From Chloroflexota bacterium (GTDB taxonomy: Bacteria > Chloroflexota > UBA11872 > UBA12225): a stretch of DNA of 41,552 nucleotides. Below, piece by piece: positions 25,644 to 41,552 of this stretch. A program made the translations under genes and the position numbers. The stretch's first letter is position 1. Each line of letters begins with the position of its first letter. The stretch covers positions 1 to 41,552 of the forward strand of contig JACQGX010000380.1 in the NCBI GenBank assembly GCA_016199265.1. The letters are read 5' to 3'. Under the pieces are notes generated by a model. That model was not told the origin of the DNA. It did not search any database and worked only from the letters and a program-made list of their open reading frames with translations.

Positions 25644-26272
25644 TGATCTCTTCTGCTCCTGACTAGTTGTGGGCCACTCCAGATGGCTCTGGCGTCGCGA
25701 CGCACTCGGCGCGAAGTCAGAAGTCGCACGTGGAAGCCCCTTTGACGCGACTGCTTCGTCCGGCAAGGCCAAGAACTCTTCGGCGCGCGGCCGCGCCTTG
25801 CCGAAGCCGGTGTGCTCGATCGGCGGTCGCAGTTCCGAGTTCCTGGTTCCTCGTTCCCAGTTGTTGCTTTCCACGAGGAACGAGGAACCAGGAACTCGGA
25901 ACTGCGTCCATCGCCAGCGAGCGCGCCCCCATGGGGCGCACGCTCGTACTTGCCTAGGCAGTCCCTCCTGTGAATGTATCGATGAAGAAGTGTAGCACCG
26001 TTCAGCCCGTTTGGCTCAACCGGCGCCGACCTGGTGGTGGGAGACCGGCCAAAGTCGGTCCTCGAAATCAGGGTAATTCCCGATTGCGAAGTCACTCACA
26101 ATCCGCTAGTCTTAGCTTGTACACTTTTTCACAAAGTCTGCCGCCGGGCCTAACCCAAAGCCATTGTGGGACTCACAGGCCTCCTCACCTTGCATCTTGC
26201 ACTTGCTCTAGGGGCCCGCGGCACATCGCCTGAACCAGAAGCCCGGAACTCGGACGGAGAAAGAAAGGATCT
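25644..26272. other. 629-bp divergent intergenic region
   Basis: No gene is seen between the ABC ATPase and the DUF4126-like gene. It holds the 30-bp inverted repeat (25828-25906), a GCGCCCC-CAT-GGGGCGC hairpin inside larger CGAGCG/CGCTCG arms (25919-25947), a TTGTACACTTTTTCACAA sequence (26117-26134) with one perfect Rex-type half-site, and a degenerate CTTGCAC word run near 26185-26207. Confidence 0.6.
25828..25906. repeat. Perfect 30-bp inverted repeat of GGAAC/CGAGGAA words
   Basis: The left arm (25828-25857) begins CGCAGTTCCGAGTTCCTGG and its exact reverse complement is at 25877-25906, separated by 19 nt. The arm is made of repeated GTTCC units (GGAAC on the other strand). The same CGAGGAA words recur at 31473-31500. 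Confidence 0.9.
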
Positions 26273-26875
26273 GTGGAATTCATCGCTGCCGTGGCGATCG
26301 GCCTAAACCCCTATGCGGGCGTGCTCCTGCTCGCGGCGTTGGGGGCGTTCACCACTCACGTGCCGCAGGGCGAGCTTTCGGCCATCTTCTCAGGGCCGAC
26401 TATGGCCAGCGTGGCCGTCGCCTTTGGCCTGGCCTTGCCGGTCGATATTGCGCTCGGAAAGTTCGTGCGCTTCGCGCCCACTGTACGCCGCGTTAGCCAG
26501 TTTGTGGCCCCGGCGGCGGCGGCCCTCGCCGCCGTGTCGGTCACGGAGTCCGATCTGCCCTCGGGCCTGGTGGCTGTAGCGAGTGCAGCCACCGCCTGGG
26601 CAGTCGCGGCGATGCTGACGGGTGTCGCGGCACGGGCGAGTCGGTCGGCAGCCTGGATCGGCCTCGGACACATCCCGGTGCTCATGGCGGCCGCGACCGC
26701 GTCCGCGTGCATCGTGCCGTTGGGTCTGGCCAGCAGGGGGATCGGCTACAGCCTCGCCGCCATTGCGGTGGTCACGCTGGCGTGGGCGACGGCCTCGGCA
26801 ATGCGTCATTCTTCGATCGCACGGCGTGCGCCGAGGCGCGCCACCTCCCTCGCGGGTCGGAGGAGCAACCGCTAG
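26273..26875 (+). CDS. DUF4126-like membrane protein
   Basis: A 200-residue membrane protein with about five hydrophobic segments, the first being FIAAVAIGLNPYAGVLLLAA. The pattern (AxGLNPYAG opening, LALPVDIALGKFVRF and a following helical repeat) resembles DUF4126 proteins, whose function is unknown. Start is GTG 26273 with AAAGGA 3 nt upstream. The C-terminus is basic (ARRAPRRATSLAGRRSNR). The small membrane protein at 27019 may belong to the same transcript. Confidence 0.65.
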   Translation: MEFIAAVAIGLNPYAGVLLLAALGAFTTHVPQGELSAIFSGPTMASVAVAFGLALPVDIALGKFVRFAPTVRRVSQFVAPAAAALAAVSVTESDLPSGLVAVASAATAWAVAAMLTGVAARASRSAAWIGLGHIPVLMAAATASACIVPLGLASRGIGYSLAAIAVVTLAWATASAMRHSSIARRAPRRATSLAGRRSNR

Positions 26876-33426: not shown

Positions 33427-33882
33427 TCAGGCCGCTCCGCCCACACCGCCGGCGACGGGCGGCGGACGGCTGCCACGCCGCCGCCGCATTCGCTCGACGG
33501 CTTGGAGGCGAGCGAGCGCCCGTGCCAGAGCAGCGCGCGCCCGCTCGTAGTCGATGTCGGGTGCCCGCTGCGCCAGCCGCGCGAGCGCCCGGCGCCGTGC
33601 CTCCTCGGCACGCGCGACGTCGATCTCCTCCGCCCGCTCGGCCGAGTCGGCGAGGATGACGACTCGGTTGTCCCCGACTTCCATGAAGCCGCCGGCAATG
33701 GCGAGCACCACTTCGTCGGCACCCTTCTTCAGGCGTACCTCGCCGGGCGAAAGCAGCGTGAGCAGCGGGGCATGGCGGGGCAGAACGCCTATCTGCCCCC
33801 CTGGTGTGTTGGCGAGCACCTCGTCCACAGTCTCACTGAGCACCGAGCGCTCGGCGGCGACGACATCAACGTGTAGCGGCAT
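33427..33882 (-). CDS. atpC: ATP synthase epsilon subunit
   Basis: A 151-residue F1 epsilon subunit that links the gamma stalk to the c-ring and can inhibit ATP hydrolysis. The N-terminal beta-sandwich (MPLHVDVVAAERSVLSETVD, GQIGVLPRHAPLLTLLSPGE, VVLAIAGGFMEVGDNRVVIL) is followed by the C-terminal helical hairpin (about 85-130) and a short Pro/Gly/Arg-rich tail (RMRRRRGSRPPPVAGGVGGA) that is longer than usual. Last gene of the atp operon. A GTAGGCA word repeat occupies the gap between atpD and this start, and no strong ribosome binding site is seen. Confidence 0.96.
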   Translation of the reverse strand: MPLHVDVVAAERSVLSETVDEVLANTPGGQIGVLPRHAPLLTLLSPGEVRLKKGADEVVLAIAGGFMEVGDNRVVILADSAERAEEIDVARAEEARRRALARLAQRAPDIDYERARAALARALARLQAVERMRRRRGSRPPPVAGGVGGAA

Positions 33883-33892
33883 GGCAATGTCT

Positions 33893-33981
33893 CAGTAGGC
33901 AGTAGGTAGTAGGCAGTAGGCGGTGGTTCGCTTCGCTCGCCGGGGTGGGGCGGGAACTGCTTACTGCCTACTGCCTACTCG
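33893..33981. repeat. Inverted repeat of CAGTAGG(CA/TA) words between atpD and atpC
   Basis: The left arm has tandem CAGTAGG/TAGTAGG units (33893-33923); the right arm, the complementary ACTGCCT units, is at 33956-33980. The loop is GC-rich. The right arm starts 1 nt past the atpD stop and the left arm ends 10 nt before the atpC start, so the whole gap is the element. Confidence 0.85.
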
Positions 33982-35604
<1,623 letters not shown>

Positions 35605-35606
35605 CG

Positions 35607-36506
35607 CTAAGCCCCGGCTTGGGCGCCGGCCGAGACTTCGATGATCTCTCGTGTAATCGTCGCCTGACGTGTCTTGTTCAGGCCCAGCCGCAGCTCATTG
35701 ACCAGCTCGGTCGCGTTGTCGGTGGCGTTGCGCATCGCCACCATCCGTGCGCTGAACTCGCTGGCGATCATTTCCAGCACCGCCTGGTACATCTGGATCT
35801 CGACGTACCGCGGCAAGAGACCCGCCAGGACGCTGGCGGGGTCAGGCTCGTAGATGTACTCGGTCGCCGTCTTGGCGTGCCTGCCGGCGGTCTCCGGCGG
35901 CTGGATAGGGAGCAACGGCACCACCGCCGGCTCCTGTCGCAGCGTGCTGACGAACCGCGGATAGACAAGCACCACGTCGTCGTATTGCCTGCCGGTAAAG
36001 GCATCCATCGCGACGCGCGAGATCGGCGTCACGCGCGTGATGTTGGGGTAGTCCCCCAGCGCGGCGAACTCGGCCACCACCGGCAGCACATGCCGGCGGA
36101 GCGACTGGACTCCCTTGCGTCCAACGGCGATGAATTCGACCGTGCGTCCCTGGTTCTGCTGTTCGAAGGTGAACTGCAGCGCCGCGCGGATCGTACTACT
36201 GTTCAGTGCACCACAGAGTCCGCGATCGGTCGTCAGCAGGATGACGGCGACACGGCGTACCGGCCGCCGCTCGAGCAGCGGATGCTGCACCTCGAACTCG
36301 TCGACTTCCTCGTCGCTCCGTAACGTCACGCGCTCGACCAGGTCGGCGAGCACCTGGCGCATCTTGTCGGAATACGGGCGCGAGGCGAGCACGCGCTGCT
36401 GCGCCCGGCGCAGGCGCGTCACCGCGATGAGTTCCATCGCGCGGGTGATCTGCCGAATATTGCCCACCGACGTCATGCGCCGGCGGATGTCACGTGCGGT
36501 AGGCAT
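35607..36506 (-). CDS. atpG: ATP synthase gamma subunit
   Basis: A 299-residue rotor subunit of F1. Terminal helices match the family: RDIRRRMTSVGNIRQITRAM at the N-terminus and NATDNATELVNELRLGLNKT followed by RQATITREIIEVSAG at the C-terminus, with VILLTTDRGLCGALNSSTIR in the Rossmann-like middle. The start is 5 bp past the atpA stop, so translation is probably coupled. Length is normal. A loop (about 190-220, RQEPAVVPLLPIQPPETAGR) is slightly longer than in E. coli. Confidence 0.97.
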   Translation of the reverse strand: MPTARDIRRRMTSVGNIRQITRAMELIAVTRLRRAQQRVLASRPYSDKMRQVLADLVERVTLRSDEEVDEFEVQHPLLERRPVRRVAVILLTTDRGLCGALNSSTIRAALQFTFEQQNQGRTVEFIAVGRKGVQSLRRHVLPVVAEFAALGDYPNITRVTPISRVAMDAFTGRQYDDVVLVYPRFVSTLRQEPAVVPLLPIQPPETAGRHAKTATEYIYEPDPASVLAGLLPRYVEIQMYQAVLEMIASEFSARMVAMRNATDNATELVNELRLGLNKTRQATITREIIEVSAGAQAGA

Positions 36507-36511
36507 CTCTC

Positions 36512-38098
<1,587 letters not shown>

Positions 38099-38149
38099 TT
38101 GTTCTTGCTCTCTCTGTCTAGGGACCGGGCCATTGCTTGGTGATCACCT

Positions 38150-38680
38150 CTAATTCAGCCTGGCGCGCAGCGATTCGAGCCGGCCGCGAAGGCTGTAGTC
38201 GTGGATGACGTCACCCTGTTGCAGAACAAGGCCGCCGAGCACGGCGGGATCGACTCGTTCGACGATCACCACCTGCCCGTCGCGGCCGGTCAATTGCGCG
38301 CGCAGCCGCCGCCGTTCCTGTTCGGTGAGCGGCACGGCACTCGTGACGGTGTAGTGCCGGATGCCGAGCGCCTGATCGGCCAGATCACCGAACCAGGTGA
38401 TGAGATCCGGCAAGAGCTCGAGCCGGCCGCGCTGCGCCATCACCAGAACCAGGTTGCGGATTTCGTCGTCGACCGCGTCGCGCAGCGCGCCTCTCAGCCG
38501 CTCCTGCTTGCTGTGCATCGGCAGCCGAGGGCTGTCGAGCGAGAGGCGCAGCGCCGGGTCGTGCATGGCCGTATCGACCACGCCGAGCTGCTCCCGCCAG
38601 CGCTGCCACGTGTTCCGCGGGCGGGCAAGCCCGGCAAGCGCTTCGGCAAAGCGCTTCGCTGCGGTAGTGCGTCGAGGCAT
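38150..38680 (-). CDS. atpH: ATP synthase delta subunit
   Basis: A 176-residue peripheral-stalk subunit capping F1. It has the N-terminal helical domain (TTAAKRFAEALAGLARPRNT, DDEIRNLVLVMAQRGRLELL) and the C-terminal DVIHDYSLRGRLESLRARL block (VDPAVLGGLVLQQGDVIHDY). Its ATG overlaps the atpF stop by one base (TGATG), giving translational coupling. Confidence 0.95.
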   Translation of the reverse strand: MPRRTTAAKRFAEALAGLARPRNTWQRWREQLGVVDTAMHDPALRLSLDSPRLPMHSKQERLRGALRDAVDDEIRNLVLVMAQRGRLELLPDLITWFGDLADQALGIRHYTVTSAVPLTEQERRRLRAQLTGRDGQVVIVERVDPAVLGGLVLQQGDVIHDYSLRGRLESLRARLN

Positions 38681-39198
38681 CAGTGCGTGCTCACCGTGTT
38701 GGCCGTTGCCGTGCCGGCGCGTGCCAGCGCCTCCTCAACCAGCCGGCGATGATCCGCCCCGTCGAGGCTGCGGCCAATCACCTGGCTTGCCGCCAGGACG
38801 GCGAGATCGGCCACCTCGCGGCGCAGCTCGGCCACGGCCGCCTCCTTCTCCCGGACAATCTCGTCGCGGGCGCGTTGCAGCATCGCGGCGTTGTGCGCCT
38901 CGGCGTCGATCAACGCCTGCTCGCGGATGCGCGCCGCGACGTTGTTCGCCTCTTCGAGAATGGCACGCGACTCATCCCGCGCGCGATTGAGTTGCTGGCG
39001 ATAGGTTTCCCGGTCTTGCTCGCCCTCCTCGCGTAGATGGCGCGCTTCATCCAGATCGTTCCGGATGCGCGTGCTCCGCTCGTCGAGCATGCGCATGAGC
39101 GGCTTGTACGCCAGCTTCCGCAGCAGGAACAGCAAGAGGAGAAAGTTGAAAGCCTGGATCGCCAGCTTGATGGGGTCAATGCCAAGTTGTTCGGCCAT
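38680..39198 (-). CDS. atpF: ATP synthase b subunit
   Basis: A 172-residue peripheral-stalk subunit: one N-terminal membrane helix (about residues 9-29, IKLAIQAFNFLLLLFLLRKL) then a long heptad-rich helix (30-150) and a C-terminal delta-contact region (VIGRSLDGADHRRLVEEALA). Single b gene with no b' partner in the operon. The 173-bp gap to atpE (39199-39371) contains a GAGCCTGCCCTGAGGGTAGA-type dispersed word (39291-39310) and no ORF. Confidence 0.95.
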   Translation of the reverse strand: MAEQLGIDPIKLAIQAFNFLLLLFLLRKLAYKPLMRMLDERSTRIRNDLDEARHLREEGEQDRETYRQQLNRARDESRAILEEANNVAARIREQALIDAEAHNAAMLQRARDEIVREKEAAVAELRREVADLAVLAASQVIGRSLDGADHRRLVEEALARAGTATANTVSTH

Positions 39199-39371
39199 GT
39201 GAGTGCGCCAGTTGCGCCGGTTTCAACACGTGAAAAATACCCGAAAGTGCCCAGCCAACGTCTCGCTCATCCCGAGCTTAGTGAAGAGCCTGCCCTGAGG
39301 GTAGACGAAGGGGGAAGCGCGATGTCCGTTATCGATCTACATCGAGAGTAGACCGACCGTCGATCGACGAG

Positions 39372-39620
39372 CTAGACGAACGCGATGATCAGCGCAACGA
39401 CGAAGCAGTAAATCGCCACCGCCTCGGCGAGACCGAGGCCGATGATCATTGTGGTGCGGACGGCGTTCTCCGCCTCAGGATTGCGACCGATCGCCTGCAT
39501 CGCCGCATGGACGCCGAAACCAATCGCCAACGCCGGCCCAAGACCGCCGAAGCCAATCGCAATCGCGGCGGCGATTCGCCGGATGGCCTCCGCCTCGAGC
39601 CCCGTAAAGTTCAGGAACAT
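39372..39620 (-). CDS. atpE: ATP synthase c subunit
   Basis: An 82-residue two-helix hairpin of the Fo rotor ring. The polar loop is AIGRNPEAENAVR, and the ion-binding carboxylate is E66 in GLGLAEAVAIYCFVVALII. The residue after E66 is Ala rather than the Ser, followed by Thr, of Na+ c-rings, so proton coupling is more likely. The N-terminal helix carries GFGGLGPALAIGFGVHAAMQ with GxGxG-like packing. High copy needed relative to other subunits; the flanking stem-loops at 39672-39720 might influence mRNA stability. Confidence 0.96.
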   Translation of the reverse strand: MFLNFTGLEAEAIRRIAAAIAIGFGGLGPALAIGFGVHAAMQAIGRNPEAENAVRTTMIIGLGLAEAVAIYCFVVALIIAFV

Positions 39621-39792: not shown

Positions 39793-40713
39793 CTATGCGT
39801 GTGAGGCCGACGGCTGGCCGTGCGCTCCCTGGGGCATCGCTCCGTGCGCCTCCCCATGCCCTTCTTCGTGGTGCCCTCCGTGCGCTTTATGCCCGGGCGG
39901 AATGTAGACCGCCAGCCCGGTAAAGATGAGCGTCAACATCGAGAAGATCAACGCCTGAATGAACCCGAATAGCAGCTCCATGACCATGAATGGCAGCGCC
40001 ACCACCGGGAACGCCATGACGGTCAAGAGCATCTCGCCGCCAAAGATGTTGCCAAAGAGACGCATCGACAGCGACACCGGCAAGAACGCCTCGATGATGA
40101 TCTTCACCGGCGTTAAGATGAGCGGTGTCGAAAGCTCCTTCCAGTATCCGGAGAGCCGGTGGACGATAACGCCCGAGGCGTGAATGAAGATGAAGGCGAC
40201 CAGGCCCATGCCCAGCGTCATGTTCACGTCGGCGTTCGCCGCCCGCAACAGCGGCACGAAGTCCGGCTCGTGGCGTTCTTTGGCTTTGCCACGGCCATCC
40301 GCTGCCGGCGAAGAAGCCGGTACACCCCCAGGCTCACCGAGGTGCGCCGTCGCGCCGCCGGTCGCCGCCGCTTCTTGGGCAACGTGGGGATTGCGGATCA
40401 GGATCGTGCCGAGCCCCGGCAACAGGCCCATGTAGTTGGCGACAAGAATATAGATGAACAGCGTGGCGATCAGGGGAAAGACGCGGCGGGCGTAGTGCCC
40501 CGCCGTATTCTCGCACAGCGTCGCGATCGCCTCGAGAATGGCCTCGAAGACGTTCTGGGCCCCCCGCGGCACAATCTGTGGGTTGCGGCCGGCGACGTAG
40601 GCAAAGGCGACCAGCACGATCATCGTCGCCCACGCCATGGCCATCGAATTCGTGATGGCGACGGGACCGATGAGGAAAATGTCCTCGGCGCGCAGGCTGG
40701 CGTGGATCTCCAT
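39793..40713 (-). CDS. atpB: ATP synthase a subunit with insertion and His-rich tail
   Basis: A 306-residue Fo stator subunit forming the proton half-channels. The essential Arg is R218 in SLSMRLFGNIFGGEMLLTVM; GLVAFIFIHASGVIVHRLSG and the last helices FMVMELLFGFIQALIFSMLT, LIFTGLAVYIPP are normal. Two oddities: residues ~112-148 (QEAAATGGATAHLGEPGGVP, then ASSPAADGRGKAKE) are a hydrophilic insertion between membrane helices. Residues 275-306 form a tail with about eight His (HKAHGGHHEEGHGEAHG). Both should lie outside the membrane. Placed 10 bp after atpI. Confidence 0.96.
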   Translation of the reverse strand: MEIHASLRAEDIFLIGPVAITNSMAMAWATMIVLVAFAYVAGRNPQIVPRGAQNVFEAILEAIATLCENTAGHYARRVFPLIATLFIYILVANYMGLLPGLGTILIRNPHVAQEAAATGGATAHLGEPGGVPASSPAADGRGKAKERHEPDFVPLLRAANADVNMTLGMGLVAFIFIHASGVIVHRLSGYWKELSTPLILTPVKIIIEAFLPVSLSMRLFGNIFGGEMLLTVMAFPVVALPFMVMELLFGFIQALIFSMLTLIFTGLAVYIPPGHKAHGGHHEEGHGEAHGAMPQGAHGQPSASHA

Positions 40714-40724
40714 GGTCGAGCCGG

Positions 40725-41015
40725 TCAGTCTCCCTCGTTGCTCGTGTTGTTCGTGCTCGTTCCGCGGCTTGTGTGTCGTCTACCTGATGCGGCACCGACG
40801 CCCTGCCGGCGCTGCACTTGGATCTGCACGCGGTAGATCATGTAGATCAGATAGATGCTAAAGACGAAGCCCCCGATGAGCCCAATGAGAAAAAACGTCG
40901 GGGCTGTGCCCAGCCGCCGATCGAGAAACTGCCCAAACAACACACCCCCGAGCAGCGAGCCGACGACGGCGAAGCCAAACTCCGTCGCCAGTGCGGCCGC
41001 ACGCCATGCTCCCAT
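40725..41015 (-). CDS. atpI: AtpI/AtpZ-family protein
   Basis: A 96-residue two-helix membrane protein: helix 1 about residues 12-31 (FGFAVVGSLLGGVLFGQFLD) and helix 2 about 40-61 (TFFLIGLIGGFVFSIYLIYM). The G-x3-G-x6-D-x3-GT-x-P pattern around LDRRLGTAPTFF is typical of AtpI/AtpZ, which assists c-ring assembly or transports Mg2+/Ca2+ for the synthase. The basic, Ser/Thr-rich tail is not conserved. First gene of the operon, directly before atpB. No strong ribosome binding site precedes ATG 41015; the frame is open upstream to a stop without another start codon. Confidence 0.85.
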   Translation of the reverse strand: MGAWRAAALATEFGFAVVGSLLGGVLFGQFLDRRLGTAPTFFLIGLIGGFVFSIYLIYMIYRVQIQVQRRQGVGAASGRRHTSRGTSTNNTSNEGD

Positions 41016-41204
41016 CGATTGGTGCTTATCGCGCTTGTCTTCCCTGCGGTAGCTCTGGTGCCTCTCGTGGCGCCGGTCGTTTCAGTCGCCCAGCTTCCTC
41101 CCCGGCCGCCAGGAAGCACGGCCGCCGGAGTATAGCACAGGCGCTCGACTCCCTCCCGCCGGCTTTCCCTCCACCGAACCTCAGTCTAGCCGCCGGCGCC
41201 GACT

Positions 41205-41222
41205 TCGTGAACGAATTCACAA
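41205..41222 (-). promoter_or_regulatory. Rex-like operator overlapping the atp transcription start
   Basis: On the minus strand the sequence is TTGTGAATTCGTTCACGA. It matches the Rex consensus TTGTGAA-N4-TTCACAA at 13 of 14 defined positions. It starts 4 nt after the -10 hexamer, so it covers the expected transcription start, a position where a repressor would block RNA polymerase. Rex senses the NADH/NAD+ ratio. No rex gene is in the window. Confidence 0.6.
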
Positions 41223-41226
41223 AGTA

Positions 41227-41255
41227 ATTGTAGCCGCAACGGCAGCAGCAGGCAA
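41227..41255 (-). promoter_or_regulatory. Sigma-70-type promoter of the atp operon
   Basis: Minus strand -35 TTGCCT (41255-41250), a 17-bp spacer, then -10 TACAAT (41232-41227). Four of six and five of six bases match consensus with ideal spacing, in a high-GC genome where A/T-rich hexamers are scarce. It precedes the atpI start by ~210 bp and follows the tRNA-Leu terminator. Confidence 0.6.
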
Positions 41256-41271
41256 CCTCCTCGCAAAAGAA

Positions 41272-41295
41272 AAACGGCCCCGCTCGAGGCCGTTT
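41272..41295 (-). terminator. Rho-independent terminator of tRNA-Leu
   Basis: Minus strand AAACGGCC-TCGAGCGG-GGCCGTTT followed by TTCTTTT: an 8-bp perfect stem with a U-run, 34 nt downstream of the tRNA end. It isolates the tRNA from the atp promoter that follows. Confidence 0.85.
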
Positions 41296-41328
41296 CCAAA
41301 CCGATGCGATGTTATGTGGTGCGTGCGG

Positions 41329-41413
41329 TGCCGAAGGTGGGACTCGAACCCACACGGGGGTGAACCCCACTACGCCCTGAACGTAGCGCGTCTACCAATT
41401 CCGCCACTTCGGC
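41329..41413 (-). tRNA. tRNA-Leu (anticodon CAG)
   Basis: An 85-nt class II tRNA including the discriminator A. Acceptor stem GCCGAAG/CTTCGGC, D-arm with GGTAGACGCG, anticodon stem CTACG-TTCAGGG-CGTAG giving anticodon CAG, a long variable arm (TGGGGTTCACCCCCG) as expected for Leu, and the T-loop GTTCGAGTC. The CCA end is not encoded. Reads CUG codons, the commonest Leu codon in this GC-rich DNA. Confidence 0.96.
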
Positions 41414-41425
41414 TCAGGCTCTCAA

Positions 41426-41431
41426 AGTATA
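41426..41431 (-). promoter_or_regulatory. Possible -10 element of tRNA-Leu
   Basis: Minus strand TATACT, five of six consensus bases, 12 nt before the mature tRNA 5' end allowing for a short leader. No matching -35 was found at 16-18 bp. Confidence 0.4.
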
Positions 41432-41454
41432 GCAGATTCTGGTTTGGCGCTCGT

Positions 41455-41552
41455 GGCCCCCTCACCCCCCGGCCCCCTCTCCCACGTTGGGGAGAGGGGG
41501 AGTCCGCCGTTCCCCTCTCCCCTGGTGGGAGAGGGGCTAGGGGTGAGGGGGC
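41455..41552. repeat. CCCCTCTCCC-word inverted repeat at the window edge
   Basis: GCCCCCTCACCCCCCGG and CCCCTCTCCC words on the left pair with GGGAGAGGGG and GGGGTGAGGGGGC on the right; an inner pair (CCCTCTCCCACG/TTGGGGAGAGGG) makes a second hairpin. The element may continue beyond the window. It lies upstream of tRNA-Leu. Confidence 0.8.

Follow-up and report, generated by a model that had tools for sequence, protein, structure and literature searches.

A putative Rex operator on the promoter of the ATP synthase operon in an uncultured Chloroflexota bacterium

We propose that the palindrome at positions 41222-41205 of the window (the whole stretch of 41,552 nucleotides that was analysed) very probably serves as an operator for Rex, a repressor that senses NADH/NAD+, and that it lies on the one promoter of the atp operon that is recognisable in the sequence. 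According to this model, a Rex dimer carrying NAD+ would lie over the transcription start, just 3' of the -10 box, and would sterically block RNA polymerase at the atp promoter. With respiration stalled and NADH on the rise, Rex would bind NADH, change shape and leave the DNA, such that the atp operon would be transcribed along with nuo, an NDH-2-like gene and nadA. It has been described that, once NADH is bound, the recognition helices of a Rex dimer come to lie too near each other and the DNA is released (PMC8836258), and in S. avermitilis Rex represses atpI via TTGTGATACGGTTCACGA (PMC5355995). Since expression of the S. avermitilis atp genes drops under oxygen limitation even without Rex (PMC5355995), induction of the ATP synthase by high NADH may perhaps be just a part of its control. 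The features that this model concerns are the following.

33427-39620, minus strand: atpE, F, H, A, G, D and C, assigned from order and sequence
39793-40713, minus strand: atpB, F0 subunit a
40725-41015, minus strand: atpI-like gene, first of the operon (PF09527, ATPase_gene1)
41205-41222, minus strand: putative Rex operator (ROP) TTGTGAATTCGTTCACGA, a palindrome over the predicted atp transcription start
41227-41232, minus strand: -10 hexamer TACAAT of the atp promoter, 17-nt spacer from the -35 hexamer
41250-41255, minus strand: -35 hexamer TTGCCT of the atp promoter, from the promoter scan
41266-41298, minus strand: G+C-rich hairpin followed by a T-rich run (fold z = -2.6), between tRNA-Leu and the atp promoter
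41327-41413, minus strand: tRNA-Leu (CAG), upstream of and codirectional with atp

All atp genes lie on one strand (minus) in the order atpI-like, atpB, E, F, H, A, G, D, C. A preliminary description of this DNA had placed the promoter TTGCCT-17-TACAAT 4 nt ahead of the palindrome, and both its coordinates and its sequence proved correct: on the minus strand the four nucleotides TACT separate TACAAT from TTGTGAATTCGTTCACGA, and a scan of 40900-41552 returned this promoter as the sole promoter-like match (mean of shuffles 0.0, sd 0.1). The operator lies 189 nt upstream of atpI, and atp transcription would be expected to start inside the palindrome, about 205 nt upstream of atpI; judged on this predicted promoter, the palindrome overlaps or abuts the promoter of its target. 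As had also been claimed, TTGTGAATTCGTTCACGA is an inverted repeat of the Rex type, TTGTGAA-N4-TTCACAA, with one mismatch among the 14 fixed positions, or with three among 18 if the spacer must consist of A/T only, as in S. aureus.

Further upstream, the hairpin at 41266-41298 is probably the terminator of the tRNA-Leu transcript. Because it is strong and has a T-rich tail, we suggest that this transcript ends upstream of the atp promoter; the hairpin was not among the hits of a terminator scan, which applies stem and loop limits of its own. An Rfam search of the atp leader returned nothing besides the tRNA. The region 41460-41552 contains a dispersed G+C-rich inverted repeat of the CCCTCTCCC...GGGAGAGGG type.

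The window, whose G+C content is 67%, is contig C346 of assembly G000, which comprises 5.59 Mb in 430 contigs and is 77% complete; by AtpA, its closest named relatives are Chloroflexota metagenome-assembled genomes at about 63% identity. Base composition predicts 0.0005 sites with at most one mismatch for the window and 0.065 for the genome of 5.59 Mb; pattern searches, the source of all genome-wide positions in G000, returned one and six, respectively. With up to two mismatches allowed, 15 sites were observed in the genome versus 1.8 expected, and in 41 genomes of the class the pattern with no more than one mismatch matched at 137 places, a reversed-pattern control at 3. That the palindrome arose by chance and has no function is thus extremely unlikely: apart from the general possibility that any 18-mer may arise randomly, nothing speaks for it, and both the expectation of 0.0005 in the window and the recurrence of the operator at the equivalent place across families speak against it.

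This recurrence was surveyed in 70 regions upstream of atp, with up to two mismatches allowed. The operator was found at 27 of these 70 loci, most of them in the class, whereas a control pattern gave no match in any of the 70. Within the class the sites lie 285-890 nt upstream of atpB, which places them near atpI or ahead of it. They occur in two genera of family f1 (G000 and G030, the latter with three sites), in perfect form in both G025 and G026 of f2, in most f3 genomes, in three of the four genomes seen in f4 and in all five seen in f5. In f1, f2 and f3 a -10-like box (TACAAT, TACACT, TATACT, TAGACT or TAAACT) stands 4-16 nt upstream of the operator, which would therefore cover or follow the predicted start. 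The site is hence conserved at orthologous genes, apart from the f1 genera g3 and g5, in which six genomes were without an atp operator and five of these carried rex. Outside the class, single sites before atp in L108 (Thermomicrobiales), L117, L143 (Thermoflexaceae) and L148 (Gemmatimonadetes) constitute weaker evidence. Several atpB matches (L057, L059, L062, L072-L077) contain one in-frame stop.

The model is also consistent with the other genes that carry the motif. In G000 a perfect operator stands directly upstream of the quinolinate synthase gene nadA (C136; L001 1501-1546), and the nadA operator is likewise perfect in G027, G030, G033 and G025, in some cases divergent from a flavin reductase gene, which suggests that NAD synthesis is under control of the NADH/NAD+ ratio. 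The preliminary description had pointed to nuo and ndh as places to look for a shared motif, and operators were indeed found upstream of nuoA (C62, and also in G033) and of the NDH-2-like gene (C87). Further operators of G000 precede suf (C382), a gene for a PEP-synthase-like protein (C281) and one for a molybdoenzyme of the DMSO reductase II type (C362); cytochrome oxidase (cox) genes carry operators in relatives of f2 and f5, and at the f3 rex loci an operator lies directly downstream of rex. The motif thus stands before genes of NADH metabolism and respiration in this genome or its relatives, and the predicted targets, being mostly NADH-consuming, NAD-making or respiratory as they are for Rex elsewhere, form a classic Rex regulon. 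No convincing target could be named for the sites on C318, C27, C188, C309, C33 and at C382:416, which may be due to chance.

The predicted regulon of G000 also takes in the gene at 26273 of the window, which is preceded by a tandem pair of less perfect sites.

26084-26101, no strand assigned: ROP-like site TTGCGAAGTCACTCACAA, two mismatches, the first of the two sites
26117-26134, no strand assigned: ROP-like site TTGTACACTTTTTCACAA, two mismatches, 33 bp from the TTGCGAAGTCACTCACAA site

A -10-like TAGTCT lies between the two sites of 26084-26134, and the gene at 26273 encodes a membrane-protein-like product of 200 aa with a weak match to DUF4126 (E 0.005). A pair with the same 33-bp spacing also precedes its orthologue (48% identical) in G030, a gene that is divergent from the atp operon there and adjoins it. 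At 26128-26138 and 41201-41211 the operators have a common 3' extension, TTCAC(A/G)AAGTC, and AAGTC also follows the operators at C382 and at the f3 atp loci.

Rex itself was found in 38 of the 41 class genomes. The proteins score above the NCBIfam (equivalog) cut-offs for Rex and match solved Rex structures at E values of about 1e-47; they contain the PF06971 and PF02629 domains, the Rossmann motif GxGNLG, the recognition helix and the RGVGY wing, and most of the residues by which T. maritima Rex contacts DNA are kept (PMC8836258), with Lys49 replaced by Arg. The preliminary description had held that absence of a rex gene from the genome would refute its reading, and none was detected in the 77%-complete G000, either with the Pfam N-terminal domain, with the full G030 Rex or with the DNA of the G027 rex locus. 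The matches of the latter were a short one within another gene and a dispersed repeat, and an aminotransferase gene on C402, which has gat-like genes beside it, is a different gene from the one linked to rex. Short repeats that adjoin rex in G027 are present in many copies in G000. In f1 relatives rex lies near a CvpA-like gene, which in G027 encodes a longer protein with a protease-like second half; this neighbour is absent from G000 too, with paralogues present for the protease-like half alone. Given the 77% completeness and the simultaneous absence of this neighbour, a gap in the assembly is the simplest reading of the missing rex locus. The same two facts argue against the view that the species lost rex and that its operators are relics read by nothing, a view favored by the lack of any rex match in 5.59 Mb; with the nadA operator still perfect and six sites still within one mismatch, we regard it as very improbable. 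The claim that Rex regulates atp in this organism is backed by the conservation at atp, by the predicted regulon, by the 38 rex-bearing genomes and by the precedent at the atpI promoter of S. avermitilis, with the rex gene missing from the 77%-complete G000 as a reservation.

Alternatively, the palindrome could be a site for a protein of the CRP/FNR family (TGTGA-N6-TCACA, equally spaced), most likely one repressing from over the start. The core found here, TGTGA-N6-TCACG, is a CRP core with one mismatch, G000 has six HTH_Crp_2 genes above cut-off while rex was not found in it, and the Crp/Fnr-like ArcR of S. aureus binds similar motifs (PMC2883068). However, only the spacing and the core fit. 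When TTGTG...CACAA alone was held fixed, the 45 half-sites with A at position 6 continued with A in 29 cases and with T in 10 (TTGTGAA versus TTGTGAT), which is the preference of Rex. CRP sites of E. coli, in contrast, prefer T after TGTGA. Moreover, the strongest sites stand before nadA, nuo and atp, and an operator over the start would be ill-suited to an activator of the CRP type, a repressor being likelier. Finally, G024, the one high-quality genome (96% complete) without rex, has neither a TTGTG-N8-CACAA site nor an atp operator, as would be expected were Rex the reader; this is only suggestive, because the f3 genus g7 has few sites despite having rex. On balance, we consider a CRP/FNR-family site unlikely. 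It is more doubtful still that the species truly is without Rex and that a CRP/FNR-family protein took over an intact Rex operator network including those of the ATP synthase and nadA.

Taken together, the sequence comparisons largely support the preliminary interpretation of the palindrome as a Rex operator. The single experimental case of Rex control of the ATP synthase that we found is in Streptomyces; the comparisons would extend such control to an uncultured class of Chloroflexota, in which one NADH sensor would link the ATP synthase with complex I and with NAD synthesis (nadA). The general picture of Rex is left unchanged. A collection for Chloroflexi is mentioned in the RegPrecise paper, which does not state the content of its Rex regulon, and an earlier computational prediction in Chloroflexi may thus exist. 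The predicted regulon is testable with Rex from a relative.

The predicted circuit is the one known from Streptomyces, now in a further lineage and with small differences in geometry. In S. avermitilis, binding of Rex to the atpIBEFHAGDC promoter was demonstrated by EMSA, ChIP and a footprint at TTGTGATACGGTTCACGA; the operon order and the 18-bp motif are as here, both motifs ending in the deviation CGA, and the regulon likewise includes nuo and ndh2 (PMC5355995). The Streptomyces operator, however, overlaps the -35 region (-50 to -22), whereas the one described here follows the -10 box and lies over the predicted start, and rex is accompanied by hem genes in Streptomyces but by a CvpA-like neighbour in the family studied here, where nadA is a main target. 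S. aureus Rex recognises the consensus TTGTGAAW4TTCACAA and represses from promoter operators, as proposed here, but its targets are genes of fermentation and of nitrate and nitrite respiration (PMC2883068), and its spacer is composed of A/T only, in contrast to TTCG here. CRP/FNR sites, TGTGA-N6-TCACA, share spacing and core with the operator described here, which differs from them in that A is favored after TGTGA and in a promoter position that suits a repressor.
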